From Candidatus Gastranaerophilales bacterium (GTDB taxonomy: Bacteria; Cyanobacteriota; Vampirovibrionia; Gastranaerophilales; Gastranaerophilaceae): a stretch of DNA of 64,000 bases. The position numbers and the translations under genes are program-made. Positions within the stretch are counted from its first letter, which is position 1. Every line of letters starts with the position of its first letter. This document shows positions 36,841 to 59,786 of the stretch, piece by piece. A model generated the notes under the pieces. That model made no database searches and was not told the origin of the DNA. It saw only the letters and a program-made list of their open reading frames with translations. The stretch is taken from contig CALUPW010000003.1 of assembly GCA_944322785.1 (NCBI GenBank), positions 180,459 to 244,458 of the forward strand. The letters run 5' to 3'.

Positions 36841-38352
36841 ATGGAAGATAGATATATTAATATAAAAGAAATAGCAAAGATAAAAGGTTTAAGCAGCACA
36901 CGCTCACTTCGCTTGGAAATAAACAAAACGGAAAGTAAATATATTGCAAAAGAAGTTAAAGTCAATGGTGGCACATCATATGAAATTTTATTCTCAAGCC
37001 TTGAACCTGAAATTCAGCAAAAACTTAGAAATGCCGAGAATAAAACAACGGCATTAGTCCCTTTAAATAATAACAAGCAAGCTGGATTTATCTCAGATAA
37101 AACAAAAATGACAGCAAATTATCGGGCTAATATTATCGTTGCATTACAAAAACTTCGTAAAAAGTATTCAACTAAAAAAGAAGCAGATACAGTTTTTTTA
37201 GATTTATATAATTCAGGATTATATCTTCCTAAAGCATATAATTTTATAGGAAGTATCTCGATTGGAACTCTGCATCGATGGGTTAGAGCTTTTGAAAAAC
37301 ACGAGTCAACAGAGTGTTTACAACCAAAATATAAATGGTCAAAACAAGGTGAATATAATTCTATTTTAAATGATGAAATGAAGAATATTCTATTAACACT
37401 TCTACTTCATCCCAGTAAGTATAATTATGGAAAAGCTATAAAACTAACAAAAGAGATATTAATAAAAAGAGGATATGAAAATCTCCCAAGCGATATAAGT
37501 TTTAAAAGGTTTGTGGAACACTTTAGAAAAAATAATTATGCCGAATGGGTTTTAAAAAGAGAGGGTATGAAAGCATATCACGATAAAGTTGAACCGTATA
37601 TTGAAAGAGATATTTCAAAAATAGAAGTTGGGGATATTCTCGTGGCTGACGGACACATTCTAAACTTTCAAGTTATTAATCCATTTACAGGTAAGCCGAC
37701 CAGAGCAACTTTGGTCGGCTTTTTAGATTGGAAATCAACAGCACTTGTTGGTTACGAGATTATGATGACAGAAAATACACAATGCATAGCTTCAGCCCTA
37801 AGAAATGCAATTATTAATTTAGGTATGATTCCGAAGGTAGTTTATCAAGATAATGGCAAGGCTTTTAAATCAAGATTCTTTCAGAATGTTGACTTTGAAG
37901 AAGAAGGGTTTAATGGTGTATATGCAAATCTAAATATTCACTCTGTCTTTGCAAAACCGTATAATGCAAGAGCAAAAGTTATTGAAAGATTTTTTAAAGA
38001 ATTTCAAGAAGAGTTTGAGAAAATGATGCCAAGCTATATCGGAACAAGTATTGAAAATAAACCTGCTTGGCTAAAACGAGGAGAATTATTGCACCAGGAA
38101 TGGCATAAAAATTTAACTAATAATCATATTCCGACATTACAAGAAACAATAAAATATATTAATGCTTGGATAGAATTTCATAACAAAAATATTTGCCCCA
38201 ATAACCGTTCAAAAACTATTCAAGAAGTATTAAATGAAGTTCCAAAACAGAAAATTAATGTTCAAATCTTAGACGATTTAATGATGAAAACAGAGTGCAG
38301 AACAATAAATAAGTTTGGATTTGTAACAAATTGTGCAATAATAAGCTTTTAA
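36841..38352 (+). CDS. MuA-like DDE transposase, short at the C-terminus
   Basis: 503 aa. N-terminal Mu-type winged-helix DNA-binding domain (about 1-65), a middle DNA-binding region (90-230), then an rve/RNase H-fold core with D270 (LVADGH), D337 (YQDNGK) and E382 (KVIERFF), close to MuA D269, D336 and E392. The C-terminal Mu beta-barrel domain appears to start near residue 475 but ends after about 25 residues, so it is probably truncated. No MuB/TnsC-type ATPase follows. The gene is preceded by repeat sites and a dyad. No good ribosome binding site is seen. Activity is therefore doubtful. Confidence 0.85.
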   Translation: MEDRYINIKEIAKIKGLSSTRSLRLEINKTESKYIAKEVKVNGGTSYEILFSSLEPEIQQKLRNAENKTTALVPLNNNKQAGFISDKTKMTANYRANIIVALQKLRKKYSTKKEADTVFLDLYNSGLYLPKAYNFIGSISIGTLHRWVRAFEKHESTECLQPKYKWSKQGEYNSILNDEMKNILLTLLLHPSKYNYGKAIKLTKEILIKRGYENLPSDISFKRFVEHFRKNNYAEWVLKREGMKAYHDKVEPYIERDISKIEVGDILVADGHILNFQVINPFTGKPTRATLVGFLDWKSTALVGYEIMMTENTQCIASALRNAIINLGMIPKVVYQDNGKAFKSRFFQNVDFEEEGFNGVYANLNIHSVFAKPYNARAKVIERFFKEFQEEFEKMMPSYIGTSIENKPAWLKRGELLHQEWHKNLTNNHIPTLQETIKYINAWIEFHNKNICPNNRSKTIQEVLNEVPKQKINVQILDDLMMKTECRTINKFGFVTNCAIISF

Positions 38353-38539
38353 AATCTTTACAAAATTTTTGTAAAAATATATACAGTAAATTGTTACTTG
38401 ACGATTTTTACAATCATATGTTCTAATTAAGTTACTGCACCGCTCATTTTATTTTACTCTGAATATTTTTAACTCTTGTTATATAAACAAGGGTTGTTTT
38501 GAGTATGTTTATTATTTCAAAAATGAAAGGACAGAACAA

Positions 38540-39829
38540 ATGAAAGAAATTCATGTAAATGCTTACACCAAAAAAGATGGTACTTATGTTAGAGAACATT
38601 ACAGAACTATAGATTCTAACGATTTTACTGTTGCTACAGAAAGTTACAATCAAACTTCCGCCTCTACACCTGTGCTGACAGGCGGAGTTAGTATGGATGT
38701 TAATCTTAATCAGGTTAATAATGGAATTGACTGGGATAATGTTGGTTCAATAATAAGACAAGTTATAAATACTACTGCAAATGTAGCACTCTCCGCCCTA
38801 CCAATTGCGTCTCAAATATATCAAGCCGCTAGTTTGTCAGATAAAAATATGGTTAATGATTTAATGCCCCATTTAAATAATGCAGTTAATTCTCTTACAG
38901 ACAATCAAAAAATTATGAAACAAAATTTGGAAAATAACTTAAAAAAATTAACCTCTACTAAAAACCAAGATGAATATGCCGCTTTATACAGATCATTTGT
39001 AAATGAAAATGAGATATACAAAAAGAATGCGGATGCACTAAATAAAATAAAATATGCAACACAAAATAAGGATTACGAAATGGTTGTAAAAGAACTAGAT
39101 AATTATATGAACCTGCAAAATAATATAATCAGAAATATTGCTGCAAATAATCCCATAAATTCACAGCCGGGAATAGAGCGTAACACACCTGCACAATACA
39201 AAACAAACCTTAATAGTATGAATTTTGCACCGTATCCGTCTCCATATATCGATTCGTACACACAGCCGGATGTGATAAAAATAAATCCCTTAAGATTTAT
39301 AAATGATACAATGAACCAAGATCGTCCGGATGCAAAGAAATTTATGGATATGGCATTAGCATTTCCAGATGCATATTCAAGGACTCCTGAATATATGATA
39401 ATTCCTAAAAAATTTAATAAAGCAGTTAGTAAACATTTAAATGTAGATATTCCTCGAGACTGGAACGGAGTTGCGTTTGAGGATAACAGCCCTACCTCTC
39501 AAAATCTGTCTAATTCGTCTCAGCTTCAACAACAAGTTGTATCATTATACAGAAACGGAAAATTTTTATCTGACAAAATTCCTATTGAATTAAATCAGGA
39601 CAAAAACTTACATTACTCTGTCGGGCATGGCACTATAATAAGACCCAACGTTGATAAAAACGGGTATTTTAAAGGAATACTGTTTGATTGGTATGACTTC
39701 GATTGGTTACCAATAGATCGTCAAAATTTACAAACAAATATCATAAATGATGCTGCATTTATACTACAAAAAATAAAAATGCTTAAAAACTACTACATTC
39801 TTATCCCTATTAAATTTAAATGGGAATAG
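38540..39829 (+). CDS. Candidate bacteriocin-like toxin with DxYDF C-terminus
   Basis: 429 aa, AAAGGAC before the ATG. The N-terminus 'VNAYTKKDGTYVREHYRT' is a short basic motif often found at the start of phage- and element-encoded proteins. The middle (about 80-200) is helical, then a Pro/Asn-rich linker leads to a C-terminal domain. The last 75 residues read as beta strands with D383-W-Y385-D386-F387 and, seven residues on, R394. This resembles the D-x-Y-D-F(N/D)...HR centre of colicin M-type lipid II phosphatases, but the His is missing and the spacing to Arg is one longer. Toxin function is a hypothesis. The genes downstream encode small membrane or membrane-anchored proteins that could give immunity. 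Confidence 0.4.
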   Translation: MKEIHVNAYTKKDGTYVREHYRTIDSNDFTVATESYNQTSASTPVLTGGVSMDVNLNQVNNGIDWDNVGSIIRQVINTTANVALSALPIASQIYQAASLSDKNMVNDLMPHLNNAVNSLTDNQKIMKQNLENNLKKLTSTKNQDEYAALYRSFVNENEIYKKNADALNKIKYATQNKDYEMVVKELDNYMNLQNNIIRNIAANNPINSQPGIERNTPAQYKTNLNSMNFAPYPSPYIDSYTQPDVIKINPLRFINDTMNQDRPDAKKFMDMALAFPDAYSRTPEYMIIPKKFNKAVSKHLNVDIPRDWNGVAFEDNSPTSQNLSNSSQLQQQVVSLYRNGKFLSDKIPIELNQDKNLHYSVGHGTIIRPNVDKNGYFKGILFDWYDFDWLPIDRQNLQTNIINDAAFILQKIKMLKNYYILIPIKFKWE

Positions 39830-41819: not shown

Positions 41820-42470
41820 TCAATCCCGTTCAAAAAAATAAAACGGAGTAAAAAGCACCTGTTGAAATTTCAATGTCAAAGTATCACCCTGTATTACTTT
41901 TGCAGGTATTCCAAGCAGTGTTAATTGAATGTATGCCATCATAAAGCTCATTTCATCTATATCAATTGCCTCAAAATACAAGTGTTTTTGATAATTAAAA
42001 TTATGTTCTTTCATGGTTTCAGCAAATGCAATAATCATTCCACCGCTTCCGCAACAAGGTTCGGAAAGTGTTATCAGGTGATTATTCGCAATCTTTTGAG
42101 AAACTTCGAGTTCTGAAAAATTTATTTCTGCCATGAATTTACTTACTGTGTACGGCGTCTCGAACTGACCAATAGCAGAGTTGCCTAAATTCAATCGCAT
42201 AAATACTTCACCTAAAAAGTCTTGATACTTTTCTTCTAGTGCCATAACTAAAAAAGCAAGCAGTTTTGAAAGTTCTTCTGCTTGCTCTTTTGTATATTGT
42301 TTTACTGTTTGTAAGTATTTTTGCTCTAATTCATCACTTCTGTAAATAGTCTGTGCTAGTGAACAGGTACATAGTGTCAAAAAGTCTTTAAACACTATCG
42401 TTAAACTTCTTGAACGATCTAAAGATTGTAGTTTTGTCATAAATTCTTTTAAATAATCTATCTTTTCCAT
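41820..42470 (-). CDS. N-6 DNA methylase-like protein without a visible NPPY motif
   Basis: 216 aa. A helical N-terminus followed by a class I methyltransferase fold of the HsdM type: FETPYTVSKFMAEI and the SAM-binding motif SEPCCGSGGMII (about 133-144), then AIDIDEMSFMMA and QGDTL. The catalytic motif IV (N/D-P-P-Y/F), expected shortly after QGDTL, is absent: the sequence reads TLKFQQVLFTPFYFF and ends. Similar short versions occur on mobile elements. It probably binds SAM, but methylation is doubtful. There is no specificity or restriction subunit nearby and the ribosome binding site is weak. Confidence 0.7.
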   Translation of the reverse strand: MEKIDYLKEFMTKLQSLDRSRSLTIVFKDFLTLCTCSLAQTIYRSDELEQKYLQTVKQYTKEQAEELSKLLAFLVMALEEKYQDFLGEVFMRLNLGNSAIGQFETPYTVSKFMAEINFSELEVSQKIANNHLITLSEPCCGSGGMIIAFAETMKEHNFNYQKHLYFEAIDIDEMSFMMAYIQLTLLGIPAKVIQGDTLTLKFQQVLFTPFYFFERD

Positions 42471-42915: not shown

Positions 42916-43230
42916 TTACTTTTTATTACAAAAAAAATTACATTCAAAATGATTGCTCTCATTATCTTTCAGACCACTTTTATTCATTTGTAATTTTGTA
43001 ATACTAAAAATCTTAGAAAAAATAAAAAAATGAATAGATTGCAGAAGAACTTCTGTGAAATTTTTTGCTTTTGAATATATAAAATTATTAAAATAACTTT
43101 GAAAGTTTCATCTTGAATCATCTGGTAATCTCTCGATAAACATCAAGCTAAATGTTTTAAATTTTCTATTTGATTAAATATGCAAGTAGTATTTATGTCA
43201 GTTATTTTGTTGTATAATTCTGATATAAAA
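42916..43230. other. AT-rich junction between accessory DNA and a broken TpsB gene
   Basis: No gene seen. The right boundary of the accessory segment probably lies here, because the outer-membrane gene that follows lacks its first half. No clear terminal repeat is seen. Confidence 0.5.
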
Positions 43231-44221
43231 AGTTCCAATGTCGTACAGTCAGCGGACAGCTTCGGACGGGAATCCACAGGGCTTTTACGTGGCGGCTTAA
43301 TGGTTTCAACAGACTCGCTTTTCGGAGTTCAGGACAGACTTACAGGTGCAGTAAACCTTGCACGTTCCACAACAAATCCGTTCGTTGACTATAACTTTCC
43401 TATTAACAGAAAAGGAACCAGAGTCGGCGGCAGCTATATGTTCGGCAACAGCAAGATTACAAGCGGGGAATATAAAGATTTTGACCTGACTGCAAAAACA
43501 CACATTTTCAGCACATACGTTTCACATCCGCTTGTTGATAATGAAAAAATGCAATTGAAATTAAACACTTCGGCAAACATCAAACTGTCAACATCAGACA
43601 TTTCAAATTTCAGATATACAAACTACAAAGATTACAACCTTGCAGTCGGATTAGGCGGAAGATACAACTTCAATAAAAGCGTCCTCTTTGGTTCTGTTTA
43701 TTCAACAAACGGTATAATTGAAGATGATATCCGTTCATTCTCACAATATTTTACAAAGGTAAATGCTGATGCATATTATATCCACTATCTGCCGAAAGGA
43801 ATTATTGCAACTGTAAGAGCCGGCGGACAGTATTCGCCGCACGATATTTCATACATTGAACAATATCAGATAGGCGGTATTTCAAGTGTAAGAGGGTATT
43901 CAGAGAGTTTACTTCTCGGTGCGAGTTCGTATTTCGTTAGTATGGAAATGCTTTTCCCCATCCCGTTTTTACCGGAAGAAATAAAAGTTCCGTTCAAAAA
44001 AGAAAATACTTTCAGGCTTAGAGATTCCATAAAAGTGGCAGCATTCTTTGATAACGGCGCAAACAACAAACTTCCTCTCCAGTGTTGGCGCCGGTATAAG
44101 ACTTGCAATATCAAAATATTTGACAGCAAGGGCTTATGTCGGTATTCCGCTTATGAACTGCGGAGTTTACGATCAGGCGAGCGCAAGACTTCACTTTGAT
44201 ATAATTGCCTCCCCGTTTTAA
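43231..44221 (+). pseudogene. Remnant of a TpsB/ShlB-type outer-membrane transporter
   Basis: The readable part, from about SNVVQSADSFGRESTG on, is the C-terminal beta-barrel of a two-partner secretion (FhaC/ShlB-like) protein, with the barrel motif GGISSVRGYSES. The N-terminal signal, plug helix and POTRA domains are missing and are not elsewhere in the window. Near 44068 the frame shifts: one extra base in an A-run moves the ending SSVGAGIRLAISKYLTARAY...FDIIASPF into another frame, which stops at 44219-44221. So the gene is both 5'-truncated and frameshifted. No TpsA exoprotein gene is nearby. Confidence 0.75.
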
Positions 44222-48586: not shown

Positions 48587-49216
48587 ATGACAAGATTGAT
48601 AGGAATTTCCGATATACACGGAGAATATGAAAAACTCTGCCGTGTTTTACATAAAATTGCACCGCAAAAAGATGATACCTTGATATTTATGGGCGACTAT
48701 ATCGACCGCGGGGCAAAGTCAAAAGAAGTCGTAAATAAAATTATTGATATGCAAAATATATGTAATTGCATTTATCTAATCGGTTCTCATGAATATGCGC
48801 TTTTGCATGCAAAAACAGATGACTATTATAATTATCTTTTCTGGAATTACGGCGGGGTGCAGACTGTCGAAAGCTATGGAAGTTTTGACAGTATATTAAA
48901 AGTCCACGGTGATTTTTTCAAAAGTCTTAAATTTTACCATTTAACGGACAAATACTTATTTATTCATGCCGGTATCAGAGCCGGAATTCCGCTTGAAAAA
49001 CAGAATGAAGTTGACATGGTTTACATAAGAAAAGAATTTTACAACAACAAAACAGATTTTCCGAAAAAGATTATTTTCGGGCATACCGAATTTGAAAAAC
49101 CACTGATTCAAGATGATAAAATTTGTATTGACACCGGATGCGGCAAATATAAAAATTCGCCGTTGACCGCAATAATCTGTGAAAACGGAAAAGAAACTTT
49201 TGTTAATTCTCTTTAA
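48587..49216 (+). CDS. PPP-family metallophosphatase (serine/threonine phosphatase-like)
   Basis: 209 aa. Motifs in order: SDIHGEY (metal ligands D8 and H10), GDYIDRG (about 36-42), IGSHEYA (the usual GNHE with Asn replaced by Ser), a histidine in IHAGI, and FGHTEF. This is the PrpA/PrpB-like class of two-metal protein phosphatases, also close to diadenosine tetraphosphate hydrolases. The Asn-to-Ser change affects a metal ligand in known relatives, so activity may differ. It runs convergently into the first VWA gene with a 4-nt overlap. A link to the adjacent FHA-like and VWA genes is possible but inferred. Confidence 0.8.
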   Translation: MTRLIGISDIHGEYEKLCRVLHKIAPQKDDTLIFMGDYIDRGAKSKEVVNKIIDMQNICNCIYLIGSHEYALLHAKTDDYYNYLFWNYGGVQTVESYGSFDSILKVHGDFFKSLKFYHLTDKYLFIHAGIRAGIPLEKQNEVDMVYIRKEFYNNKTDFPKKIIFGHTEFEKPLIQDDKICIDTGCGKYKNSPLTAIICENGKETFVNSL

Positions 49217-50046
49217 AAACGGATAAATTTATATCCTCTGTTTCCGTTATTCTGAATATTTACAGGTTTTTGATATTGCTGACGCCCCTGTTGAACGGTT
49301 CCTGCAGGAACATTAAAGGTACTTTCCAGAGCTGATTCAAAATTTTGGCGGTTACCATTGACTTTATAAAACTTCCCGCCGGTTTCATTTGTAAGACACA
49401 TCAAGGTTGTGTCACGGCCTAGTTGAATAACATCAATTTGAATATCTTTGCGTGTTTGCATAAGCTGTTTTATATATGCGCACGGATCACCCCCGCAGCC
49501 TTCACCTCCGTCTGTTACAAGAATTATTTTTTTATTCTGGGAAACCGGAGTATTATCTGAGCTTACTATTTTTAAGTTTTTAAAATCCTTGTTTACGGTT
49601 TCTCGCAAAGCATATTCAAGAGGTGTATTGCCGCCGGGTTTGGCTTCCTGCAAACCTTTAACAATATTTGACTGATTATTTTTCTTAAAATATGAAACCA
49701 GCCGTGTTGCCTGACAGAAATTGTTATATGAATATTTATTTGAAGGTAAATCACCGAATATTCTTAAGGCAACAGCAGAGTTTTGAGGAATTTTCGGCAA
49801 TATATAAATAAGAGTTTCTTTTGCCAGTTCTATCCAGTCAAGCATACTCCCCGAAAAATCTACAAGAAGTTCTATTGCCTCACCATCAATATTTGCACGT
49901 TTCGGACTTTGAACAATTTGAACCTGCTTGTATGTTGTCGGGGTATAAACATTATAACGTGCGGCAAATACACTTTGCGGCACAGTTAAAAGTGCAAACA
50001 ACAAGAAAGTCAAAACATATTTTAGTATCTTTTTCAAATTTTTCAA
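49213..50046 (-). CDS. Secreted VWA-domain protein 1
   Basis: 277 aa. Signal peptide (about 1-28), a short conserved lead (YNVYTPTTYK), then a von Willebrand factor A domain with MIDAS D63-x-S65-G-S67, the threonine in GGNTPLEYAL and the aspartate in LVTDGGEGCGGDPCAYIK. Two cysteines in that last motif, shared with the three paralogues upstream, probably bond. The C-terminal tail ends GYKFIRF. VWA domains bind metal-dependent protein ligands; the location is periplasm or cell surface. It is the last of four tandem paralogues. Confidence 0.85.
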   Translation of the reverse strand: MKNLKKILKYVLTFLLFALLTVPQSVFAARYNVYTPTTYKQVQIVQSPKRANIDGEAIELLVDFSGSMLDWIELAKETLIYILPKIPQNSAVALRIFGDLPSNKYSYNNFCQATRLVSYFKKNNQSNIVKGLQEAKPGGNTPLEYALRETVNKDFKNLKIVSSDNTPVSQNKKIILVTDGGEGCGGDPCAYIKQLMQTRKDIQIDVIQLGRDTTLMCLTNETGGKFYKVNGNRQNFESALESTFNVPAGTVQQGRQQYQKPVNIQNNGNRGYKFIRF

Positions 50047-50062
50047 AACTTACCTCATCAAG

Positions 50063-51073
50063 TTAATATTTATAGAATTTGTAGCCTTTAGGTGACTTTT
50101 TATTTATTTCAAGAACTTTATCCTCAGGACTTCCTTTTTTATTTATTTCCAGTCCTAAAGGTTTTTCTCTGTTTTTTTCAATTTCTATATATTTTTTCTT
50201 TTGTTTTGATTCAAAACCGGTATCTTTTTTGGATTTAACGTCCGCATCCGGATTTGAAATATTTTTATTATTATTTTTTTCATTTTTTAGTTTGTCAATT
50301 GTTCCTTTCGGAAGTCCGATTGATTCTTCCAAGACATTCTCAAACTGATTTTCAAAATCTTTATAATTATCATTTGTATTTGTATCCTGACATGCCCGAC
50401 AAATTAACGGCATATTCTGTTCTTTATATTCGGCTTTTAACATATAATACTTACCACCCGTCACATCCGCAATACATTTTAAATTGCAGCTGCCAAAATT
50501 AATTACATCAATTTTAATATCTTTACGTGTTGTAACCAGATATTTTATATAGCGGCATGGGCTTCCGCCACAGGTATCACAGCCGTCAGTTAAAAGTATT
50601 ATTTTTTTATTTTGGCGTCCGGCAGAAGGAAAATCTTTATTCACGACATCTCTTAATGCGGTTTCAAGCGGGGTCTGCCCGCCGGCTTTTACCTTTGACA
50701 AACCGCTTACGACTTTATCCTGATTGTTATTTGCAAAATATGTTATTAGTGTCGAGGCATTGCAGAAGGTTTCCATATCAAACCCGGTCACCTCAGGAGG
50801 CACGTAACCGAAAATTCTTAAGGCAAGAAGCGTGTCGGATGAAATCGCCGGGATAACAGTTTTAACTGTTTCCAGCACAAGCGGGATTTTGCCGGTCATG
50901 CTTCCCGAATAATCAAGAAGAATTTCCACAACTCTGTCATAAGTATTTAAGGAAGCCAATTGTTTATATCCGCCGGGTGTATAGATTTCCAGCTGTGCAG
51001 CATACGCATTAACCGAATTAATAACCGTTAAAAAAAATGAAAACAAGATTAATTTTACAAAATTCTTTTTCAA
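50063..51073 (-). CDS. Secreted VWA-domain protein 2
   Basis: 336 aa. Signal peptide (1-26), lead LEIYTPGGYKQL, VWA domain with MIDAS D54-Y-S-G-S, GGQTPLETAL and LLTDGCDTCGGSPCRYIK, plus two extra cysteines (ICRACQD near 230). The C-terminal 80 residues are a lysine- and asparagine-rich linker ending GYKFYKY. Paralogue of its neighbours, 20 nt from the next VWA gene and 16 nt from the previous one. Confidence 0.85.
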   Translation of the reverse strand: MKKNFVKLILFSFFLTVINSVNAYAAQLEIYTPGGYKQLASLNTYDRVVEILLDYSGSMTGKIPLVLETVKTVIPAISSDTLLALRIFGYVPPEVTGFDMETFCNASTLITYFANNNQDKVVSGLSKVKAGGQTPLETALRDVVNKDFPSAGRQNKKIILLTDGCDTCGGSPCRYIKYLVTTRKDIKIDVINFGSCNLKCIADVTGGKYYMLKAEYKEQNMPLICRACQDTNTNDNYKDFENQFENVLEESIGLPKGTIDKLKNEKNNNKNISNPDADVKSKKDTGFESKQKKKYIEIEKNREKPLGLEINKKGSPEDKVLEINKKSPKGYKFYKY

Positions 51074-51093
51074 TTAATAACCTCATTTGACTG

Positions 51094-52029
51094 TTAATTA
51101 AAATCCACGAATTTGTATTTACGAACTTTATCAGCCGTTCCTTTTGGTACATCAAATGCTTTTTCAAGCGCATCTATAAGGGTTGCGTCATTAACCTTAT
51201 AATAGTTGCCACCGGTTGAATCAGAAAGACATTTCAAATTGTCATTGTTACCTATTATTATTACATCTATTGTAATGCTTTTATTATTTCTTAGCACCGA
51301 CTTTATGTAGCTGCATGGGTCTCCTCCACAGGATTCATAACCGTCCGTAATCAATACGATTTTCTTCTTTTTATTTCTTATATTATTCAAGTCTTTTACT
51401 GCATCTTTTAGTCCAAGCTCAATCGGCGTAAATCCTCCAATTATACCTCTATTAAAACCGCTTAGAAGTTCACTGCTTGTTGAACCGAAACGGGCAACAA
51501 GCTTTGACTGAAAACAGGATGATGAATATGAAATTGAGGTACACGGGCGTTGTTCTGTTTTGTATGTATATTGCAAAGCAGAGTCACATTCCTTGTAAAG
51601 CGCCCTTATTTTGTTACATTCACGTCTGTTTGACGGATTTTGTGCGCAATCAATACTGTCCAATTTGTTTTTATATGATATACATTTATCGGAATTCGGA
51701 TTTTTAACCGGAACACGCACTTCATACGTACACATTCTCTTTGTCTGCTCAGTCGGACTTACATTCAAATCACCGCCGAATAATCTTAGTGCTGTTTTTG
51801 TATTACCGAGTTTCGGAATTATATATTCCATAGTCTTTTTGGTAATTTCAACTACTCTGGACATACTGACGGAAAAATCCACAAGCAGTTCAATATATTC
51901 TGCCTTATTTGTGCTAAAACTATTAAGATTACTCTGTCCGCCTGTCTGATAACGATTAAACTGTTCGGCGAATACGGGATTTCCAAATAAAAAGCAAAAT
52001 ACTATCAAAATTATAATATTTTTTTTCAT
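51094..52029 (-). CDS. Secreted VWA-domain protein 3 with cysteine-rich insert
   Basis: 311 aa. Signal peptide (1-21), MIDAS D51-F-S-V-S (Val in place of the usual Gly), GGFTPIELGL and LITDGYESCGGDPCSYIK. Unlike the other three it has an insert of about 70 residues (about 85-160) with some seven cysteines. It ends KYKFVDFN, so the conserved aromatic tail is followed by one extra residue. The most divergent paralogue of the set. Confidence 0.8.
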   Translation of the reverse strand: MKKNIIILIVFCFLFGNPVFAEQFNRYQTGGQSNLNSFSTNKAEYIELLVDFSVSMSRVVEITKKTMEYIIPKLGNTKTALRLFGGDLNVSPTEQTKRMCTYEVRVPVKNPNSDKCISYKNKLDSIDCAQNPSNRRECNKIRALYKECDSALQYTYKTEQRPCTSISYSSSCFQSKLVARFGSTSSELLSGFNRGIIGGFTPIELGLKDAVKDLNNIRNKKKKIVLITDGYESCGGDPCSYIKSVLRNNKSITIDVIIIGNNDNLKCLSDSTGGNYYKVNDATLIDALEKAFDVPKGTADKVRKYKFVDFN

Positions 52030-52143
52030 TTTGACCTCCCGAAACCATTATATATTTTTTTAAACGATTCTGCAATTTTCAAAGTTCAAAAATGAACATT
52101 TTCTTTAAATAATCGTTACATACATGTATGATTGAAAGTTTAT

Positions 52144-52980
52144 TTAAAATTTTACATATTTATATTTATCGGCCAGCGGTTTGCTATTGTTATATTTAGG
52201 TGTTTTCTGCCTGTAAGAGGACTCCTCTTTATAACGCTCATTTGCAACCGTACCTTTAGGAACTTCAAATGCCAGTTCAAATGCTGATTCAAACTTTTGA
52301 CGGCTTCCGTCGATTTTGTGGAAAGTGCCGCCTGTAGCTTCTGCAAGACATGCGAGTTTGTTGTCGTTTCCGAGCTGTACAACATCAATTTGAATATCAT
52401 CACGTGTTCTCATAAGCTTTCTTATATATGCACACGGATCTCCCCCGCAATTTTCACCGCCGTCGGTTACAAGAACGATTTTTTTCTTTTTAAATGTCGT
52501 ATTACGGTCAAATACCCTTACATTATCAAAATCTTTTTCAACCGTTTGACGAAGGGCAAGTTCAATCGGAGTGACGCCACCGATTTTTGTTTCACCCAGA
52601 CCATTCAGTATTTCAGCCTGATTCCGCTTGGAAAGAGAAGCAACCTGACGTGTGGCTTCACATGCATGCCGGTAACTTTCCCCTTGCGGGGGGTTATCTC
52701 CAAAAACTCTTAATGACACAGCTGATGATTGCGCAATTTTCGGAAGAATCACTTTTAACGTATCAATTGCTACATTAATCCATCTTCCCATACTGCCGGA
52801 ATAATCCACAAGAAGCTGTACAGCTTCCCCGTTTACGGAAATTCTTCTCGGCGGACTGTTAAGTTTGCTGAGTTCTTTGTAGGCATTGGGCGTATAAACT
52901 TTAAATCCGCCGGCTGATACCGGCAATCCCGCACAATTAAGTAAAAATATAGCCAATACAATTACAAATATTTTTTTCAA
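52144..52980 (-). CDS. Secreted VWA-domain protein 4
   Basis: 278 aa. Signal peptide (1-23, with a cysteine at 16 that does not form a good lipobox), lead FKVYTPNAYKEL, MIDAS D59-Y-S-G-S, GGVTPIELAL and LVTDGGENCGGDPCAYIR; C-terminal tail DKYKYVKF. Closest to VWA protein 1. It is the first gene of the four-gene minus-strand run and is divergent from the VirB10-like operon, 150 nt away. Confidence 0.85.
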   Translation of the reverse strand: MKKIFVIVLAIFLLNCAGLPVSAGGFKVYTPNAYKELSKLNSPPRRISVNGEAVQLLVDYSGSMGRWINVAIDTLKVILPKIAQSSAVSLRVFGDNPPQGESYRHACEATRQVASLSKRNQAEILNGLGETKIGGVTPIELALRQTVEKDFDNVRVFDRNTTFKKKKIVLVTDGGENCGGDPCAYIRKLMRTRDDIQIDVVQLGNDNKLACLAEATGGTFHKIDGSRQKFESAFELAFEVPKGTVANERYKEESSYRQKTPKYNNSKPLADKYKYVKF

Positions 52981-53088
52981 AATGTTCTCCGATTAATCTT
53001 TATTTTCCGTTTTTAAAATTCCCTTATTATAATAAAGTCAAAAATGAACAAATAATTTACAAAATCGTTAATTATATATAAAGTTTTA

Positions 53089-53117
53089 TTGCAAAAGAGA
53101 AACTCTCACTTTATAAT
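53089..53117 (+). promoter_or_regulatory. Promoter of the VirB10-like operon
   Basis: TTGCAA (53089-53094), a 17-nt spacer and TATAAT (53112-53117). Transcription should start close to 53124, just before the chosen ATG at 53134. Confidence 0.65.
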
Positions 53118-53133
53118 GCTGTATAGGATGAAA

Positions 53134-54402
53134 ATGAAAAAGTTTTTTACGATTTTAATTATCTTATTGGTTACGGCAATAGAAGCAAATGCGGCAGACG
53201 TTTCAAAGCTTTACAGAATAAAGAAAGCAAAGCCTGATACGGTTGCAAAAGTTTTGACGCCGTACTTGAAAAGACTTTATCCAAATGCAGTCATAAATCA
53301 AAACTCATATATTCTTGAAGATTCCAATAAAAAACATTTTTATGTGGTCATTCTTTCCGAAAAAGAGGATAACTGCTATTTTTACTATATGTCAAACAAT
53401 GAAGATGAAGATTTGCGCAAAAACATTTTGAAATCGTTAAAAAATAACGATTTTAAACCCAAAAGAGTCTTTGATTCAAGTTTAAAAAGCTATTTTTACG
53501 GTGAAGCCTACACAAACCTTGCTCACAGTAATGTTAATATTAATATGAGAGCCAATATGGAAAATCAGGGTTCATCCTCACATCAGGCTCAAATGCCTGT
53601 TGATGCTCAGAATATAAACTATGATTTCAGCGATGAAGCTCAGGCAAGATTTGACAATATGAATAATCGTATGCCTGAAAATCAACCGGTTACGCTTAAT
53701 CAAAATCCGGCTTATGAACAGCCGATTGAATTGGATAATCCGAAAGTTGTAAAGCTTCCGCAAATAGGCTCACCATATCAGAGCCAGCCATATAATGCAC
53801 CTGTTTACAGCCAGCGGCAAAACAATAATAATCAAACGCCGACTAACGTTTTAACCGGAAGTGTTATATATATTGAAGACGGGGCAACATTTACGGCAAT
53901 GCTGTTATCCGATATAAGCTCAAGCAGTCTTGTAAATAACGACCTGATAAGCGCCGAACTTGATGCGGACTGGATTTATAACGGAAATCTTATTGCTCCT
54001 GCAGGAAGCGTTCTGAACGGACGGGCAATCGACACAAAGCAGGCGGGATTTGCAATGGCAAACGGACAGATAGGATTGCTTTTTGATGAAATTATGACAC
54101 CAGACGGAAATATCATTCCGCTCAAAACAAATAAAGTTTATATTACAGGGAATTCAACAAGAGCGCTCAATATAACCAAACGTATTGCAGGCGGTGCTGC
54201 AACCGGACTGCTTTTATCCGCAATTTCAATGCTGCTCGGAGCTGATCCGACAAGTGCAATTATTGCGGGAACTTCAATAGGTGCCGGAGCGGGTGCGATT
54301 TCTGCTATTTCAACAAAGGGCGAGGAAATTAATTTGATTGAAGGCTCACAGCTTCAAATAATGCTTGTTGAACCATTAACCGTACAGCTTTACAGACAGT
54401 AA
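53134..54402 (+). CDS. VirB10/TrbI-like exported protein
   Basis: 422 aa. Signal peptide (1-20, ending EANA), an N-terminal alpha/beta domain of about 110 residues, a Q/N/P-rich linker (about 130-240), and a C-terminal domain with LTGSVIYIEDGATF, NGNLIAPAGSVLNGRA, MTPDGNIIPL and a glycine-rich hydrophobic stretch (about 345-385). The C-terminal pattern is that of the VirB10/TrbI beta-barrel domain, which in type IV secretion bridges the inner and outer membrane. No other type IV secretion gene is present, so it probably serves another machine. The start is placed after the mapped -10; the frame from 53089 is rejected. Confidence 0.6.
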   Translation: MKKFFTILIILLVTAIEANAADVSKLYRIKKAKPDTVAKVLTPYLKRLYPNAVINQNSYILEDSNKKHFYVVILSEKEDNCYFYYMSNNEDEDLRKNILKSLKNNDFKPKRVFDSSLKSYFYGEAYTNLAHSNVNINMRANMENQGSSSHQAQMPVDAQNINYDFSDEAQARFDNMNNRMPENQPVTLNQNPAYEQPIELDNPKVVKLPQIGSPYQSQPYNAPVYSQRQNNNNQTPTNVLTGSVIYIEDGATFTAMLLSDISSSSLVNNDLISAELDADWIYNGNLIAPAGSVLNGRAIDTKQAGFAMANGQIGLLFDEIMTPDGNIIPLKTNKVYITGNSTRALNITKRIAGGAATGLLLSAISMLLGADPTSAIIAGTSIGAGAGAISAISTKGEEINLIEGSQLQIMLVEPLTVQLYRQ

Positions 54403-54417
54403 TTTGAAAGGAATAAA

Positions 54418-56016
54418 ATGGCCGTTATAATAACATCAAAAAATAACGAAAAAATCTACAGAGAAAAAGATTTTATAATAATCGGTTCAAATTCCGACTG
54501 TGATTATCAAATTGATGCGGGATTTGATTTTTTATTAACGGTCAAATATGACGAAAATACAAACAAATGTACAGTTATAAACAATTTTTCCAACCCGAAG
54601 ATTCTTTTTCGTGGTGAACCTTTTAAAGGAAAAATTCTTTTTGAAAAGTTCTGTAAACTAAAATTTGACGGTTCAGATGAATTTGTGGGAATAAAAATCG
54701 AAAAAAATGAAACGGCTATAAACAGCAGCAACAACTCCGATACAAAACGGCATTCTCTAAATACAGAAAACGAAATTGATTCGGAAGTTAAACAAAAACT
54801 TGAAAACAAAAAATCCGAAATTGAAAAAACAAGAGTCGCTATCGTAAAACAAATAGCGTTTGCTATCAATGATTTAAAAAAGCGAATTTCTTTAAACTTT
54901 AAAGCTTCAATCATTTTAAATATAGCACTGATAATAAGCACAATTGTTATGACGTTCGGAATTACAAATTATTTTATGGGGCTCCCGATAACGGATACGG
55001 TTGCATTTATGAATATGCCGACCAACATAAAAATGCTTTTTCTGTTTTCTGTATTAACTTATGCCGTTTCACTATCCTTAAAACAGGGAATTTTTCTTTA
55101 CCTGCAAAACAAAGATATTGAAAAACCTCTTTACGGTTCAAAATTTGCCCGGAATTTTCTTATAATACTTTCGACGTTTTTTATGATTACCTTTTATGCC
55201 ATAAATCTTATTTATTATATGAACCCGAACGGACGAATTTTTTACGGAACGGCTGTTTCATTATTTTTTGTAACTCTTAATATGTCAATTGCGTTTGCAT
55301 GCGGATATTTTAAATACAGCGGGCACAAACTTTCAATGGAACTTGACAAATACGAATATAGAGAAGATTTTGAAATAGTGCTTTCAAACTATCAAAACTG
55401 GATTGAAATGTTTATAAACAGCCTGAGTTCTGTTAAACTGGATTATATAAAAGAAAAAATATTTATGGTGAGATTAAAAAGTGTAGCTGAAACTATCCTT
55501 GGAATTTTAACAGCACCGTTTCTGGCATACGGAGTTTCAAACACACTTGCAATGTGCTTTCCGGAAGCCGCAGGATGGGTTAGAATTTCAGGTGTAAGAT
55601 TTTCTCCGGTATTCTTAATTCTTGCAACAATGCTTATTATATTTGCATTTTTTATGATTTCCAACGGATTTTTTAATATCAGAAAAATAAGCGGCTCCGA
55701 TATAATTAAACTTGATGGCTTCCGCAACTATCTGATTCATGGCGTTGATATTTTCGGACTTCAAAATATCCGCTCTCTTAATCGGGAAAAAATTCGATTT
55801 TTTGTAATCGGAATTTCAATTATTTTTATTGAATTTACTATGAACACTTCGTTTTTTATGACGGAAATCGGAGCGGATTTAAACGGAATATTTTTAAGTC
55901 TTGTCGCAGCAACTGTTCCGACAGCACTTTTGATTGCGGAAACTTACATTTTAAGCAGAACAAATTATGAATTATTTGTTTGTGACTCGTTAATTTCCAA
56001 AATGGACAGAAAATGA
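54418..56016 (+). CDS. Polytopic membrane protein with FHA-like N-terminus
   Basis: 532 aa, AAAGGAA before the ATG. Residues 1-95 resemble an FHA fold (RxxFIIIGSNSDCDYQI) but lack the Ser and His that contact phosphothreonine, so it may be structural. A coiled coil (about 120-155) leads to about eight transmembrane segments between 160 and 515 with a cytoplasmic or periplasmic helical loop near 300-350. No known family. It overlaps the next gene by 4 nt (ATGA), placing it firmly in the operon. Confidence 0.6.
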   Translation: MAVIITSKNNEKIYREKDFIIIGSNSDCDYQIDAGFDFLLTVKYDENTNKCTVINNFSNPKILFRGEPFKGKILFEKFCKLKFDGSDEFVGIKIEKNETAINSSNNSDTKRHSLNTENEIDSEVKQKLENKKSEIEKTRVAIVKQIAFAINDLKKRISLNFKASIILNIALIISTIVMTFGITNYFMGLPITDTVAFMNMPTNIKMLFLFSVLTYAVSLSLKQGIFLYLQNKDIEKPLYGSKFARNFLIILSTFFMITFYAINLIYYMNPNGRIFYGTAVSLFFVTLNMSIAFACGYFKYSGHKLSMELDKYEYREDFEIVLSNYQNWIEMFINSLSSVKLDYIKEKIFMVRLKSVAETILGILTAPFLAYGVSNTLAMCFPEAAGWVRISGVRFSPVFLILATMLIIFAFFMISNGFFNIRKISGSDIIKLDGFRNYLIHGVDIFGLQNIRSLNREKIRFFVIGISIIFIEFTMNTSFFMTEIGADLNGIFLSLVAATVPTALLIAETYILSRTNYELFVCDSLISKMDRK

Positions 56017-56984
56017 TTAAACTATACTTTATTTCAATAGGAATACTTATTTTAACGATTACGATTGCCGCAGGGATTATAAAACCCGGCATTAACAAAA
56101 CCGTGCGGTTTGCAAACGATAATTTCCAAATAACAACAACCGAACTTGCCGGAAATCCCGAGGCTACTCATGAAATTCCCGAAAATGACGTCAAAATTGT
56201 AAATACTGAATTTACTGAAAACAAAACTATTGAAAAACAAATTGAAACAAAATCTCCTGCCGCAAAAGAAATCACAAAAATTATAGAAAACAAACAGCCT
56301 GCAACTGTAAAAAATATTGAAATAAAAAAAACAGAAACCAAAATCAAAACAACAAACAAAAATATAAATACAACTCCGCCTAAAACAGAAACTAAAACCA
56401 ATAAAAAAGAACAAACGGAAACACAAAAACAGAAAAAAGAAATTGCTGTTGAAATGCCGCAGTCTGTAAAAGATATTTTAAATAACAAACCCTCCGAGCC
56501 TGAACCAAAACAGGAAACAATCGAAAATAAAATTGTAAAACTTCCGCAGATAAATCCGACTCCAAAACCGGCAGAAACCGTAAAACAAATTGAACAAACT
56601 CAAGACAATGACAGACCTTTAACCGAACAGGAAGAAATAATCGTTTGGAACATCTGGCGGAGCAATCTTCAAAATCAGATTATGAAAGATACACAAATTG
56701 CAGCACCGCTTGGAACAGCCTTCAAATTTTCATTTACTGTTGACAAACGAGGACGGATATCCAATCTGAAAACCTGGGCTGTCCCGTCAAATTACAATCC
56801 TATAGCAGTCAACTACCTAAAGCCGTTGATTTTAAGCTATCAGGGTCAATCCATTTTGAACTTTCCGGCAAGGACAAAACGTGTTATAACTAATGTAACC
56901 GGAGGATTTGTAATCTCTACTCAGGACAGATTCAGCACACCTAACGACTTTCAGGATATCGAAAAAATTAAAACTTTAAGGTAA
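56013..56984 (+). CDS. TonB-like periplasm-spanning protein
   Basis: 323 aa. N-terminal transmembrane anchor (about 4-24), a long Lys/Thr/Pro-rich spacer (about 60-205) and a C-terminal domain (about 215-300) with the LQNQIMKDT...GTAFKFSFTVDKRGRISNL pattern of TonB/TolA C-terminal domains. Proteins of this kind carry force or contact from the inner membrane to the outer membrane. The middle of the gene is low in complexity. Confidence 0.65.
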   Translation: MIKLYFISIGILILTITIAAGIIKPGINKTVRFANDNFQITTTELAGNPEATHEIPENDVKIVNTEFTENKTIEKQIETKSPAAKEITKIIENKQPATVKNIEIKKTETKIKTTNKNINTTPPKTETKTNKKEQTETQKQKKEIAVEMPQSVKDILNNKPSEPEPKQETIENKIVKLPQINPTPKPAETVKQIEQTQDNDRPLTEQEEIIVWNIWRSNLQNQIMKDTQIAAPLGTAFKFSFTVDKRGRISNLKTWAVPSNYNPIAVNYLKPLILSYQGQSILNFPARTKRVITNVTGGFVISTQDRFSTPNDFQDIEKIKTLR

Positions 56985-56987
56985 AAA

Positions 56988-57941
56988 ATGTATAAATGTA
57001 CGGAATGTAACGAAAAATATAAAGTAAAACCCGAATATTGCAAATGCGGGAACGATGAATTTGAAGAAATTAAAGAGATTGAAAAAACTTTAATGCCAGA
57101 CATTGAAAATTCATCACAAAAAACTTTTGAAAAATCAATATCGAAAATTTCAAAAGGATTAATTTTTCAAATAAGTTATATAGTATTTTGTATTATTCTT
57201 GCAATCATCCCCTGGCTTTTTAAAACGGAAAAAGCGGCTCCAACAACAGAGCAAACCGTTCAAAAACCTGTTCAAAATATTCCGGATATTGAAACAATTT
57301 GGAGCGATGAAATTGCAACACCTGTACAAAAGCCGGCAGATGAACCTGAAATCGTAAAAGCTGTCGAAAAGGTAATAAACAAAGTAATTTCACCAAAGCC
57401 GGTACAAAAATCTTCCACTGTCAAAACTCAACCCGAAACACAGACAACCCGACAGATTAAAAAGCCTGTTCAAAATAAACAGCAAACCTCAAAACCTGTA
57501 CCCAAAACGACACAGCCTGTAAATACCTCAGCAAAACAACAAAAAACGACAGATGCAAAACCAAAACTTCCGCAGTCTGTTCTAAATCCGAAAAAGGTTG
57601 AAACCCAAAAACCAAAACCAAAGCCGGAACCGCCGCAAATGAACCAGCAGGAATTTTTACAATACAAAGCCGAAATCCGCTCCGCTCTGCTAGCCAAACT
57701 GAATATAACGGCAGTAAGCGGCACCGGCGACTGTGCGGTTGAATTTTCTATTGACAACTCCGGCAAACTCATTAATCGAAATTTTATCTACAAATCCTCA
57801 AACAAAAGTCTTAATGATGAAGTTTATCTGATGCTGATGCGGCTTCCGTATTTTAAACAGCCGCCAAAATATTATAACGGTGAAAAAATCCGTCTGAAAT
57901 TCTATATTAACAACGGATATTATGAAATTACGTTTTTATAA
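56988..57941 (+). CDS. Zinc-ribbon, transmembrane, TonB-like protein
   Basis: 317 aa. A cytoplasmic N-terminal zinc ribbon (C4, C7, C18, C20), an acidic stretch, a transmembrane segment (about 60-77), a Pro/Lys/Gln-rich periplasmic spacer (about 85-220) and a C-terminal TonB/TolA-like domain (about 225-317) with the VEFSIDNSGKLIN strand pair. The fusion of a zinc ribbon to a TonB-like protein is unusual. AAGG precedes the ATG, 3 nt after the previous stop. Last gene of the operon. Confidence 0.65.
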   Translation: MYKCTECNEKYKVKPEYCKCGNDEFEEIKEIEKTLMPDIENSSQKTFEKSISKISKGLIFQISYIVFCIILAIIPWLFKTEKAAPTTEQTVQKPVQNIPDIETIWSDEIATPVQKPADEPEIVKAVEKVINKVISPKPVQKSSTVKTQPETQTTRQIKKPVQNKQQTSKPVPKTTQPVNTSAKQQKTTDAKPKLPQSVLNPKKVETQKPKPKPEPPQMNQQEFLQYKAEIRSALLAKLNITAVSGTGDCAVEFSIDNSGKLINRNFIYKSSNKSLNDEVYLMLMRLPYFKQPPKYYNGEKIRLKFYINNGYYEITFL

Positions 57942-58085
57942 TCCGCCACTCTTTACAAATATTTTTTCTCATGTAATATAAAAATATGATTAACATTCAA
58001 ATCCGACGTAGAATATTTAATAATGAGGTTTTGTTGAGAAATAAAACGTTTTAATTCTATGCGGATAAAATAAAAGTTCAAAACA

Positions 58086-58118
58086 AGACCTTGAAAAATA
58101 TTCAGGGTCTTATTTTTT
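58086..58118 (+). terminator. Terminator of the VirB10-like operon
   Basis: AAGACCTTGAA (58086-58096) pairs with TTCAGGGTCTT (58102-58112) with one T-G pair, followed by a T-rich run. The rest of 57942-58291 shows no gene. Confidence 0.8.
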
Positions 58119-58291: not shown

Positions 58292-58319
58292 GTACAAATC
58301 GGTATCATTCGATTTGTAC
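58292..58319. promoter_or_regulatory. Perfect dyad upstream of a hypothetical gene
   Basis: GTACAAATCG (58292-58301) and CGATTTGTAC (58310-58319) form a perfect 10-bp inverted repeat with an 8-nt spacer, 24 nt before the ATG at 58344. Operator or leader hairpin. Confidence 0.6.
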
Positions 58320-58343
58320 ACAAGAGTAAAGGAAACAAAATAC

Positions 58344-59786
58344 ATGATACCCGGTATTACGGCAGGACAAATATATTCAACACTAGGCAACAACAATTCA
58401 TTAATTCCGCTTGCGATAAAAGACATGGCAAACAGCACAGGATTAACCGTCGGTTCATACATAACCGGCGATATGGCGGAAGGAAGAGACAGATTTATAG
58501 ATGAATTCGGAACTCAGGCAATATGGCTTTTAGGAATTCCCGCATACAAAAAGCTGCTTGACCTTTCACTTTTTAAAGCACTCGGATATGATCCGAAAAT
58601 TGATGTAAGAATTCTTAAAAACCCCGAAATTTTTGAAAAGGCAAAACAGTATGCCGCAAATGATGAGATAAAATCAGCATTTGAAAAAATAGGCAAATCC
58701 CCAAAATCTTTAAAAACCTTTAAAGGTTTAACCTTCGGGAAATTTGTAGCCTCAACATTTTTGACTATTCTTTCATACTACGGGCTGACAAAATACAGAC
58801 ATCATGCGACCAAAGAACATATCAAAGAAAATTTTATTAAAAAACACAAAGCCGAATTAGAAAATTCAAAAAAATCTTCTAATCATTCGATTTTTGCAAA
58901 GAACAAAAACGGCGACACTTTTACTGCAAATTTGAAAACGCCCTCAGCATTTAATTCAGTTCACAAAGACAAAAATAAGACAAACAATTCCAAAAATCTG
59001 ACATTCACCGGACTTCAGGATTTTATGTTCAGTCCGACCAAAAACCTTATGATTGTTGATGGTGCAATAACTGCCGAAAGATTTTACGAATCAAGAAATC
59101 CGCAGGATTTAATCGGTTATATAATAAAAGAAGGCAGTTTCTGGGCATTTATGTATTTTCTGGGCGAAAAAATACAGCATTATGTTGAAAATTCAACGGA
59201 AAAGAAACATGGAATGAATATTCAGCTTGATGCAAGAGTAATTGAAAGTGCGGAACTCAAAAATGCCTTAAACGACAAAAATCTTCAGACAACACTTAAA
59301 GCTTTCTCCAACATAACAAAAGATGTTGATATATACGATTTTGTCGTAAATCCGCACAACAAAGACAATATAATCGTTAAAATGGCAAAAATGTCCGATA
59401 TAGTTGAAGTCACGGACAAAAAAGATTTGTTTAACAGCAAAGTCGATACAAGAAAATACATTGACATTGACGAAGTAAAAGGAATTAACGAAAAACTCGG
59501 CAAACTTTACAATCAATTTAAAACATACAAAGATAATGTCAAAACAAAATTCGCAGATAAATCCGAGGATGAAATTCTTGCGGATTTTCTGAAAAATTTA
59601 AGAAAATACAAAAGAGGCTCAATTCTTAAAAACATCGGAACCTGTATAGGCGTTCTCGGCGTAATTGCACCGGCTGTAATGGTAGGAATAAGATTTGCCG
59701 ACAAAAAGAATAAAGGTTTTAAAGTTAAAGAAGAGCTTGAAAAAGAACTTGAACAGCAGCTTAAAAACGGAACATTAAAAGCCTAA
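58344..59786 (+). CDS. Hypothetical membrane protein of lineage type
   Basis: 480 aa from the ATG at 58344 (AAAGGAA upstream; the frame from 58314 overlaps the dyad and has no ribosome binding site). Hydrophobic segments lie near 135-155, 265-280 and 440-465 of the protein, with long soluble parts between. Motifs include 'IKDMANSTGLTVGSYITGDMAEGRDRF' near the N-terminus and 'LTFTGLQDF' near residue 220. No known family. Similar in style to the membrane protein at 32.8 kb. It ends with a 4-nt overlap with the convergent flavoprotein gene. Confidence 0.55.
   Translation: MIPGITAGQIYSTLGNNNSLIPLAIKDMANSTGLTVGSYITGDMAEGRDRFIDEFGTQAIWLLGIPAYKKLLDLSLFKALGYDPKIDVRILKNPEIFEKAKQYAANDEIKSAFEKIGKSPKSLKTFKGLTFGKFVASTFLTILSYYGLTKYRHHATKEHIKENFIKKHKAELENSKKSSNHSIFAKNKNGDTFTANLKTPSAFNSVHKDKNKTNNSKNLTFTGLQDFMFSPTKNLMIVDGAITAERFYESRNPQDLIGYIIKEGSFWAFMYFLGEKIQHYVENSTEKKHGMNIQLDARVIESAELKNALNDKNLQTTLKAFSNITKDVDIYDFVVNPHNKDNIIVKMAKMSDIVEVTDKKDLFNSKVDTRKYIDIDEVKGINEKLGKLYNQFKTYKDNVKTKFADKSEDEILADFLKNLRKYKRGSILKNIGTCIGVLGVIAPAVMVGIRFADKKNKGFKVKEELEKELEQQLKNGTLKA

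Follow-up and report, generated by a model that had tools for sequence, protein, structure and literature searches.

The window analysed here is a stretch of 64,000 nucleotides (nt) from contig CALUPW010000003.1 (positions 180,459 to 244,458) of Candidatus Gastranaerophilales bacterium GCA_944322785.1, a genome of 1.95 Mb that is 99.75% complete. Its subject is a cluster of nine genes (48587..57941), most of which encode a putative envelope-spanning module. The original prediction, made from the sequence alone, had described nine clustered genes, and all nine open reading frames (ORFs) were found where it placed them. Four genes on the plus strand form a tight operon. They encode a VirB10-like exported protein (VB10; 53089..54402), a polytopic protein with an FHA head (54418..56016; 532 aa) and two proteins that we call TonB-1 (56013..56984; 323 aa) and TonB-2 (56988..57941; 317 aa). 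VB10 and the FHA protein gene are separated by 15 nt, the FHA and TonB-1 genes overlap by 4 nt, and TonB-2 follows after 3 nt. The minus strand carries a row of genes for four secreted VWA proteins, numbered 1 (49213..50046; 277 aa), 2 (50063..51073; 336 aa), 3 (51094..52029; 311 aa) and 4 (52144..52980; 278 aa). The gaps between them are 16, 20 and 114 nt, so that the spacing of 3–20 nt or overlap claimed for the whole cluster holds for the operon and two of the VWA gaps and fails for the third. The VWA row had also been described as facing the operon. The two blocks are in fact divergent, back to back, because the minus-strand row runs away from the operon; the starts lie about 108–153 nt apart, depending on the start codon of VB10, and the intergenic region (52981..53133) is an upper bound that assumes a start at ATG 53134. 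The ninth gene encodes a calcineurin-like phosphoesterase (48587..49216, plus strand; PF00149).

The assignments of the operon proteins rest on predicted folds and profile comparisons. VB10 is listed with 437 aa from TTG 53089, and ATG 53134 is the likelier start. It consists of a signal-like helix, an N-domain (residues ~36–130), a low-confidence linker and a C-domain (~257–437) that is predicted to be of the VirB10/ComB10/CagY type with a two-helix antenna. The mean predicted local distance difference test score of the model is 72.6, and blocks of the C-domain outside the antenna mostly score 78–95. All 15 PDB matches of the fold search at E<0.001 are outer-membrane complexes of type IV secretion systems, which backs the VirB10-like assignment as far as the C-domain is concerned. 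The FHA protein is predicted to have an FHA beta-sandwich at residues 1–98, as had been proposed, and eight transmembrane (TM) helices with both ends in the cytoplasm. TonB-2 has a zinc ribbon followed by a TM helix, a linker and a TonB C-domain; the ribbon cysteines C4, C7, C18 and C20 are invariant in 25 aligned homologues, in keeping with the proposed fusion, and 22 of the 25 match PF13103. TonB-1 has an N-terminal TM helix, a linker rich in Lys, Pro and Thr, and a C-domain that is only remotely TonB-like. No TonB model occurs among the Pfam matches of 36 TonB-1 members, a sequence search of the PDB returned a single weak and unrelated match, and the C-domain aligns with the TonB-2 profile at an hhalign E of 2e-5 (probability 77%). 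Of the two TonB-like proteins originally proposed, TonB-2 is thus clear and TonB-1 is a remote relative. In loci L031, L032, L039, L040, L053, L056 and L060, a gene for a TM-helix protein of 77–106 aa lies upstream of VB10, and several copies carry a P-x-M-H-K-like motif that they share with the TonB-1 N-terminus.

The distribution of the module was traced in two samples of genomes, 386 from the phylum and 146 from the order. The FHA protein is found in 128 of the 386, and the 128 listed all belong to the window's own family. A match occurs in 100 of the 146 genomes of the order, at full length in 94, a few of these with an in-frame stop. The remaining matches comprise five genomes with only a 100-aa gene for the FHA head and one weak partial match. 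Stand-alone head genes of this kind are seen in genus g6 (L043 6863-7162; L059 9021-9320), where five of six genomes have no full-length FHA protein. One of the 94 genomes (G020, 66% complete) comes from another family. The module was not found in 52 of the 146 genomes, among which at least 20 of those listed belong to the same family. The comparison of gene neighbourhoods used 36 regions picked to cover genera, four from the genome of the window and, out of 350 FHA relatives, the best 80. The contigs of those 80 include 49 from Gastranaerophilales, the rest being mostly gut or rumen bins. Since the loci were chosen for holding an FHA gene, they lean to closer relatives. With the window there are 121 loci, of which 104 have distinct full-length FHA genes and 83 also have enough flanking sequence.

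In most relatives, a second type of VWA gene sits between the VirB10-like and FHA genes. Its product, hereafter the anchored VWA, is about 222 aa long and has a TM helix at the N-terminus. The D-x-S-x-S start of the metal ion-dependent adhesion site (MIDAS) is present in 79 of 80 distinct sequences, 71 of the 80 end in [IL]GR (alignment A2), and a comparison with the PDB gave no match at 0.001. The full-length FHA protein and the anchored VWA occur in identical sets of genomes (94/146). The window locus has no anchored VWA; a second locus of the same genome (L045) has one, together with FHA, TonB-1 and TonB-2. At the level of genomes, the strict core is thus made up of the FHA protein and a VWA anchored in the inner membrane, a pairing that the original prediction missed. 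In the 83 loci, a VWA of either type is always present (anchored in 63, secreted within 9 kb in 32), TonB-1 is present in 81, TonB-2 in 67 and a VirB10-like gene in 65. All 20 loci that lack the anchored VWA have a secreted VWA within 9 kb. The proposal that VWA genes and the operon travel together fails to the letter for the secreted VWAs, as 51 of 83 loci have none within 9 kb. Those loci have the anchored VWA and 83/83 have some VWA, and we judge that the proposal stands in substance. Four genomes (G057, G096, G106, G113) have no TonB-2 at the FHA locus and encode a full-length one elsewhere.

Loci that have a secreted VWA or a VirB10-like protein no shorter than 320 aa, the window among them, were assigned to subtype A and all others to subtype B. 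On a tree of 104 FHA sequences, the A labels require 10 changes versus a mean of 32.4 when shuffled, and the B labels 14 versus 33.0. The tree was made by a quick method and has several long branches, and the A label of L103, inside a B group, reflects borderline length. Features of subtype A also go together across genomes. With cut-offs set after the tables had been seen (E<1e-110 for long VB10; about 1e-45 for secreted VWA, other VWAs scoring 1e-36 to 1e-40 and a few second copies near 1e-45), 45 of the 146 genomes have long VB10 and 50 a secreted VWA: 45 have both, five the VWA only and 96 neither (Fisher p 2e-32, uncorrected for kinship). Long VB10 is mixed within ten genera, eight of which are fully concordant with secreted VWA, the others (g4, g20) having two exceptions each. 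Nine of the 45 genomes carry the two genes without linkage, some of these cases being uncertain because of draft contigs. Counting one genome that fell outside the E cut (G132), 45 of 46 long-VB10 genomes, rather than 45 of 45, have a secreted VWA.

The four VWA proteins of the window share 41–51% mutual identity, and all have signal peptide-like starts and MIDAS residues, bearing out the four tandem secreted paralogues originally described; export is judged here by the signal peptide-like start alone. VWA 1 also has conserved cysteines and scores below the cut-offs of the Pfam VWA models, VWA 2 is above cut-off for VWA_3 and VWA, and VWA 3 has an insertion within the VWA domain. The MIDAS residues D-x-S-x-S...T...D are invariant across 18 aligned secreted VWAs. 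Their second characteristic feature is a C-terminal tail, which reads GYKFIRF, GYKFYKY, KYKFVDFN and KYKYVKF in VWAs 1 to 4, respectively. The motif Y-[KEQR]-[FY]-x lies within 15 residues of the C-terminus in 54 of 56 distinct secreted VWAs; of the two exceptions, one is cut by a contig end, and in the other the motif lies a little farther from the terminus. It is also found in 119 of 120 listed database relatives. Among 1773 other mechanical ORFs with a length of 150 aa or more, 12 have the motif. Judging by this sequence pattern, the tail resembles a tag for docking or sorting. Apart from these proteins, the secreted-VWA profile has one match in the window genome, a 237-aa VWA on contig C9, which has no tail. 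Two further genomes have three tandem VWA genes each, away from the module (G104, L164 5312-7928; G122, L165 3435-5885); no operon is nearby, and these proteins mostly have no tail, their C-termini being only partly tail-like. A loose lipobox pattern occurs in 9 of the 55 secreted VWAs of the local set and in 34 of the 120 from the database, and was rejected as a conserved feature, since in printed examples it mostly precedes a likely signal-peptidase I site.

A tail nearly universal in, and specific to, the secreted VWAs might be a C-terminal export signal, read by the VirB10-like ring of a machine that secretes these proteins across the outer membrane. VirB10 proteins line the outer-membrane channels of type IV systems, other secretion systems recognise signals at the C-terminus, and the 45 of 46 long-VB10 genomes that encode a secreted VWA would fit such a route. 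However, VirB4 (PF03135), the ATPase, has no match in the window genome, whereas the positive control, Caulobacter, matched. In addition, many core genomes encode no secreted VWA that could be the cargo, and three loci (L078, L079, L085) keep a tailed VWA beside a short VB10 that lacks the N-domain. We consider a dedicated export route rather unlikely. The VirB4 result also bears on the proposed genome-wide check for missing type IV secretion genes, and type IV secretion itself was rejected on this ground. VB10 shares the C-domain fold with VirB10/TrbI/ComB10/CagY and differs from them in its signal peptide-like start and extra N-domain.

The combination of FHA, phosphatase and VWA genes in one cluster recalls a phospho-signalling module. 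This explanation is largely refuted, and we regard it as very improbable. The FHA residues that, as we take it, canonically bind phosphopeptides (Gly-Arg, Ser, His) are absent across 44 homologues, as had been noticed for the window copy; with the sites placed by eye, position 24, presumably the site of the Arg, is never Arg in the 44 sequences. No kinase is encoded among the nine genes. The gene originally called a PPP-type phosphatase is present and was assigned as a calcineurin-like phosphoesterase, but a relative of it occurs near only 12 of 41 subtype-A loci, every one in the window's own clade. It is therefore probably a lineage-specific neighbour and not part of the system, contrary to its inclusion in the cluster.

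Likeness to the Ton and Tol-Pal systems lies in the TonB_2/TonB_C domain and in the TM helix with its proline/lysine-rich linker. By contrast, the module has no TonB-dependent receptor, no dedicated ExbB/TolQ and no TM-helix (SHLS) histidine. The TonB-dependent receptor plug (PF07715) has no match in the window genome, with E. coli, Caulobacter and Bacteroides matching as controls, and TonB-dependent uptake was ruled out accordingly. The only MotA_ExbB match (PF01618) lies in a separate TolA operon (contig C2 of the window genome, G000; L046 6081-10507), in which two VirB10-like genes stand upstream of a TolA/TonB-like gene, a TolQ-like gene and two genes that are TolR/ExbD-like by eye. Its TolA-like protein has, also by eye, a histidine at the start of the TM helix. 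A Tol system with a motor of its own was thus rejected for the module. VirB10-like matches, in whatever gene context, are present in all 146 genomes of the order, and the Tol systems of Gastranaerophilales may regularly include VirB10-like proteins. A solitary 392-aa VirB10-like gene with no VWA or TonB-like neighbours is found on contig C12 of G132 (L161 2208-3386). The operon with two VirB10-like genes, their ubiquity in the order, the many loci with an anchored VWA only and the missing plug domain would all agree with Tol-Pal-like maintenance or tethering, in which struts, ring and VWAs brace or position the outer membrane from the periplasm and no adhesion is involved. Yet the module is not found in 52 of the 146 genomes, same-family ones included, and hence is not housekeeping; the TolA operon could already cover that function, and MIDAS together with a signal peptide suggests an exported binding protein. 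We hold this explanation to be doubtful. An anti-phage defence function was also considered and rejected, with 0 PADLOC families for eight proteins, a set that leaves out VWAs 2 and 3 of the window.

The identical genome sets of the FHA protein and the anchored VWA raise another explanation, in which the FHA protein is a motor and the anchored VWA its axle. Tethered vWA force transducers that form close pairs with TolQ-like genes, TolR being absent, were predicted in 2025 (excerpt of PMC12204202), and the module resembles them, so far as that excerpt describes them, in the close pairing of a VWA that has a TM anchor with a polytopic protein of the membrane. Conserved carboxylates occur in the membrane part of the FHA protein, E472 (44/44) and E508 (43/44), and the residues T365, T502 and T509 are invariant. 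Nevertheless, the VWA's partner does not resemble TolQ in sequence, and none of 44 members has a MotA_ExbB model among its Pfam matches. The pair also lacks an SHLS-type histidine and a TM aspartate, and the TM segment of the anchored VWA has an acidic residue in 0 of 30 sequences, unlike the predicted TPH-vWA family of the same excerpt. In addition, the FHA gene has been lost from two subtype-A loci. The membrane part has no convincing Foldseek/VIA match, the rows shown covering residues 1–98 only, and a possible internal repeat in it is weak (hhalign P 0.0013, probability 19%). For the FHA protein, a profile search found at least 1167 database relatives, and the 120 of them that were listed match no Pfam domain. 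We consider a force-transducing motor pair quite improbable.

By its parts list, the known system that the module most resembles is the Glt focal-adhesion complex (Agl-Glt) of Myxococcus xanthus. GltJ presumably has a zinc ribbon, and we know of no VirB10-like protein from Glt. According to excerpts of the respective papers, GltG has FHA plus TonB domains (PMC3169522), the C-terminus of GltJ is TonB-like (PMC8262864), and the Glt complex recruits CglB, a surface protein of the VWA type (PMC13104615). On the strength of these excerpts, both combine in one envelope-spanning set an FHA head, TonB-like periplasmic domains carried by proteins with a TM anchor, and a VWA protein for the surface; exported VWAs with MIDAS are likewise part of the module. 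The differences are that FHA resides on a separate polytopic protein, not fused to TonB as in GltG, and that the module has no AglRQS-type motor of its own. Because the motor and the FHA-TonB fusion are both lacking, the module is not a member of Glt. In the excerpt of PMC3169522, the Myxococcus gliding machinery was reported in 2011 as not conserved in cyanobacteria. Targeted searches of the open-licence literature of PubMed Central gave no account of this gene set, which agrees, within that literature, with the claim that no described system has it.

We tentatively favour, with a probability of roughly 0.4, the reading that the module is an envelope-spanning machine that docks, and possibly pulls, VWA adhesins at the outer surface. 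What stands of the periplasm-bridging machine originally proposed is that its genes travel together across the family and that no tested known system fits; the mechanism is unproven. The assembly, force and adhesion of the module, as we infer them, would be as follows. The FHA protein would be the inner-membrane platform, and its head, since the phospho-binding residues are gone, would make a structural protein contact. The anchored VWA would be the partner of the FHA protein, supplied from the second locus in the window genome. TonB-1 and TonB-2 would serve as struts or transducers across the periplasm, with the zinc ribbon of TonB-2 as a cytoplasmic contact, and VB10 would be located at or beneath the outer membrane. 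The secreted VWAs would dock via the Y-[KEQR]-[FY] tail, plausibly through beta-strand addition, with a TonB-like or a VirB10-like domain as acceptor, so that the MIDAS face would remain open to ligand. The source of force is uncertain: the machine may be passive, borrow the motor of the TolA operon or have the FHA protein as its engine. A bolder version, in which the eight-helix FHA protein and the tethered VWA form an ion-driven engine that replaces TolQ/TolR, works the TonB-like struts through the VirB10-like ring and moves tail-tagged MIDAS adhesins on the surface, as a focal adhesion independent of Myxococcus, we regard as improbable.

Several observations weigh against a docking and pulling machine at the surface. 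At least 44 of the 94 core genomes have no secreted VWA, and therefore surface adhesion by secreted VWAs is not the sole job of the module; the VWA domain may also bind periplasmic proteins rather than the surface. Active pulling is unsupported, because the TonB-like TM helices have no histidine of the motor-coupling type. Any histidine in the best TM segment is found in only 2 of 36 TonB-1 and 1 of 25 TonB-2 sequences; many TonB-1 relatives have one just past the helix, and the window copy does not. The single MotA_ExbB gene of the genome sits apart from the module, as noted above, and the TonB identity of TonB-1 is weak on sequence grounds. The parts are also separable. A VirB10-like gene was not found near the FHA gene in 18 of 83 loci, TonB-2 was not matched in three of the 94 genomes (G079, G119, G141) and only weakly (E above 1e-20) in seven. 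Two genomes (G059, G062) have a locus with VirB10, TonB-1, TonB-2 and secreted VWA but no FHA gene, their single FHA gene being on another contig. As for the association of VB10 with secreted VWA, G132 has its near-full-length VB10 gene (E 7e-92) alone, with no secreted VWA; G049, G060 and G134 have a secreted VWA and no full-length VB10; and G104 and G122 have only doubtful VWA relatives.

Downstream of the operon, a terminator-like stem (58085..58111, plus strand) is a pattern match only, with 14 such patterns in the region versus 7.5 expected in shuffles. A gene for a 490-aa protein (58314-59786) adjoins the operon and is also present in loci L049 and L050 of the same genus. On the other side of the cluster, an integrase/transposase-like ORF of 503 aa followed by an ORF of 429 aa lies in low-GC sequence (36841-39829), by eye a likely mobile element. 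A short ORF at 41820-42470 contains PYTVSKFMAE...EPCCGSGGM and resembles, by eye, a truncated N6-adenine methyltransferase. An outer-membrane barrel-like ORF (43180-44199), FhaC/ShlB-like by eye, has a C-terminal end that is seemingly out of frame and is possibly decayed.

The module is real, conserved and undescribed in the open-licence literature, a variant of trans-envelope TonB/TolA-like machinery, and its gene cluster is nearly confined to one family of gut-associated cyanobacterial relatives. It suggests that VirB10-like proteins act outside type IV secretion. As a transmitter of force, it would be a transducer across the envelope that has no TolQ/ExbB-type motor of its own; should it do no more than display adhesins, it would be a new device for docking whose C-terminal tag is readable. 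To our knowledge, Gastranaerophilales dwell in animal guts, and we know of no way by which they attach or move there. Present in 94 of the 146 genomes of the order, the module is a concrete candidate for attachment or movement in the gut.

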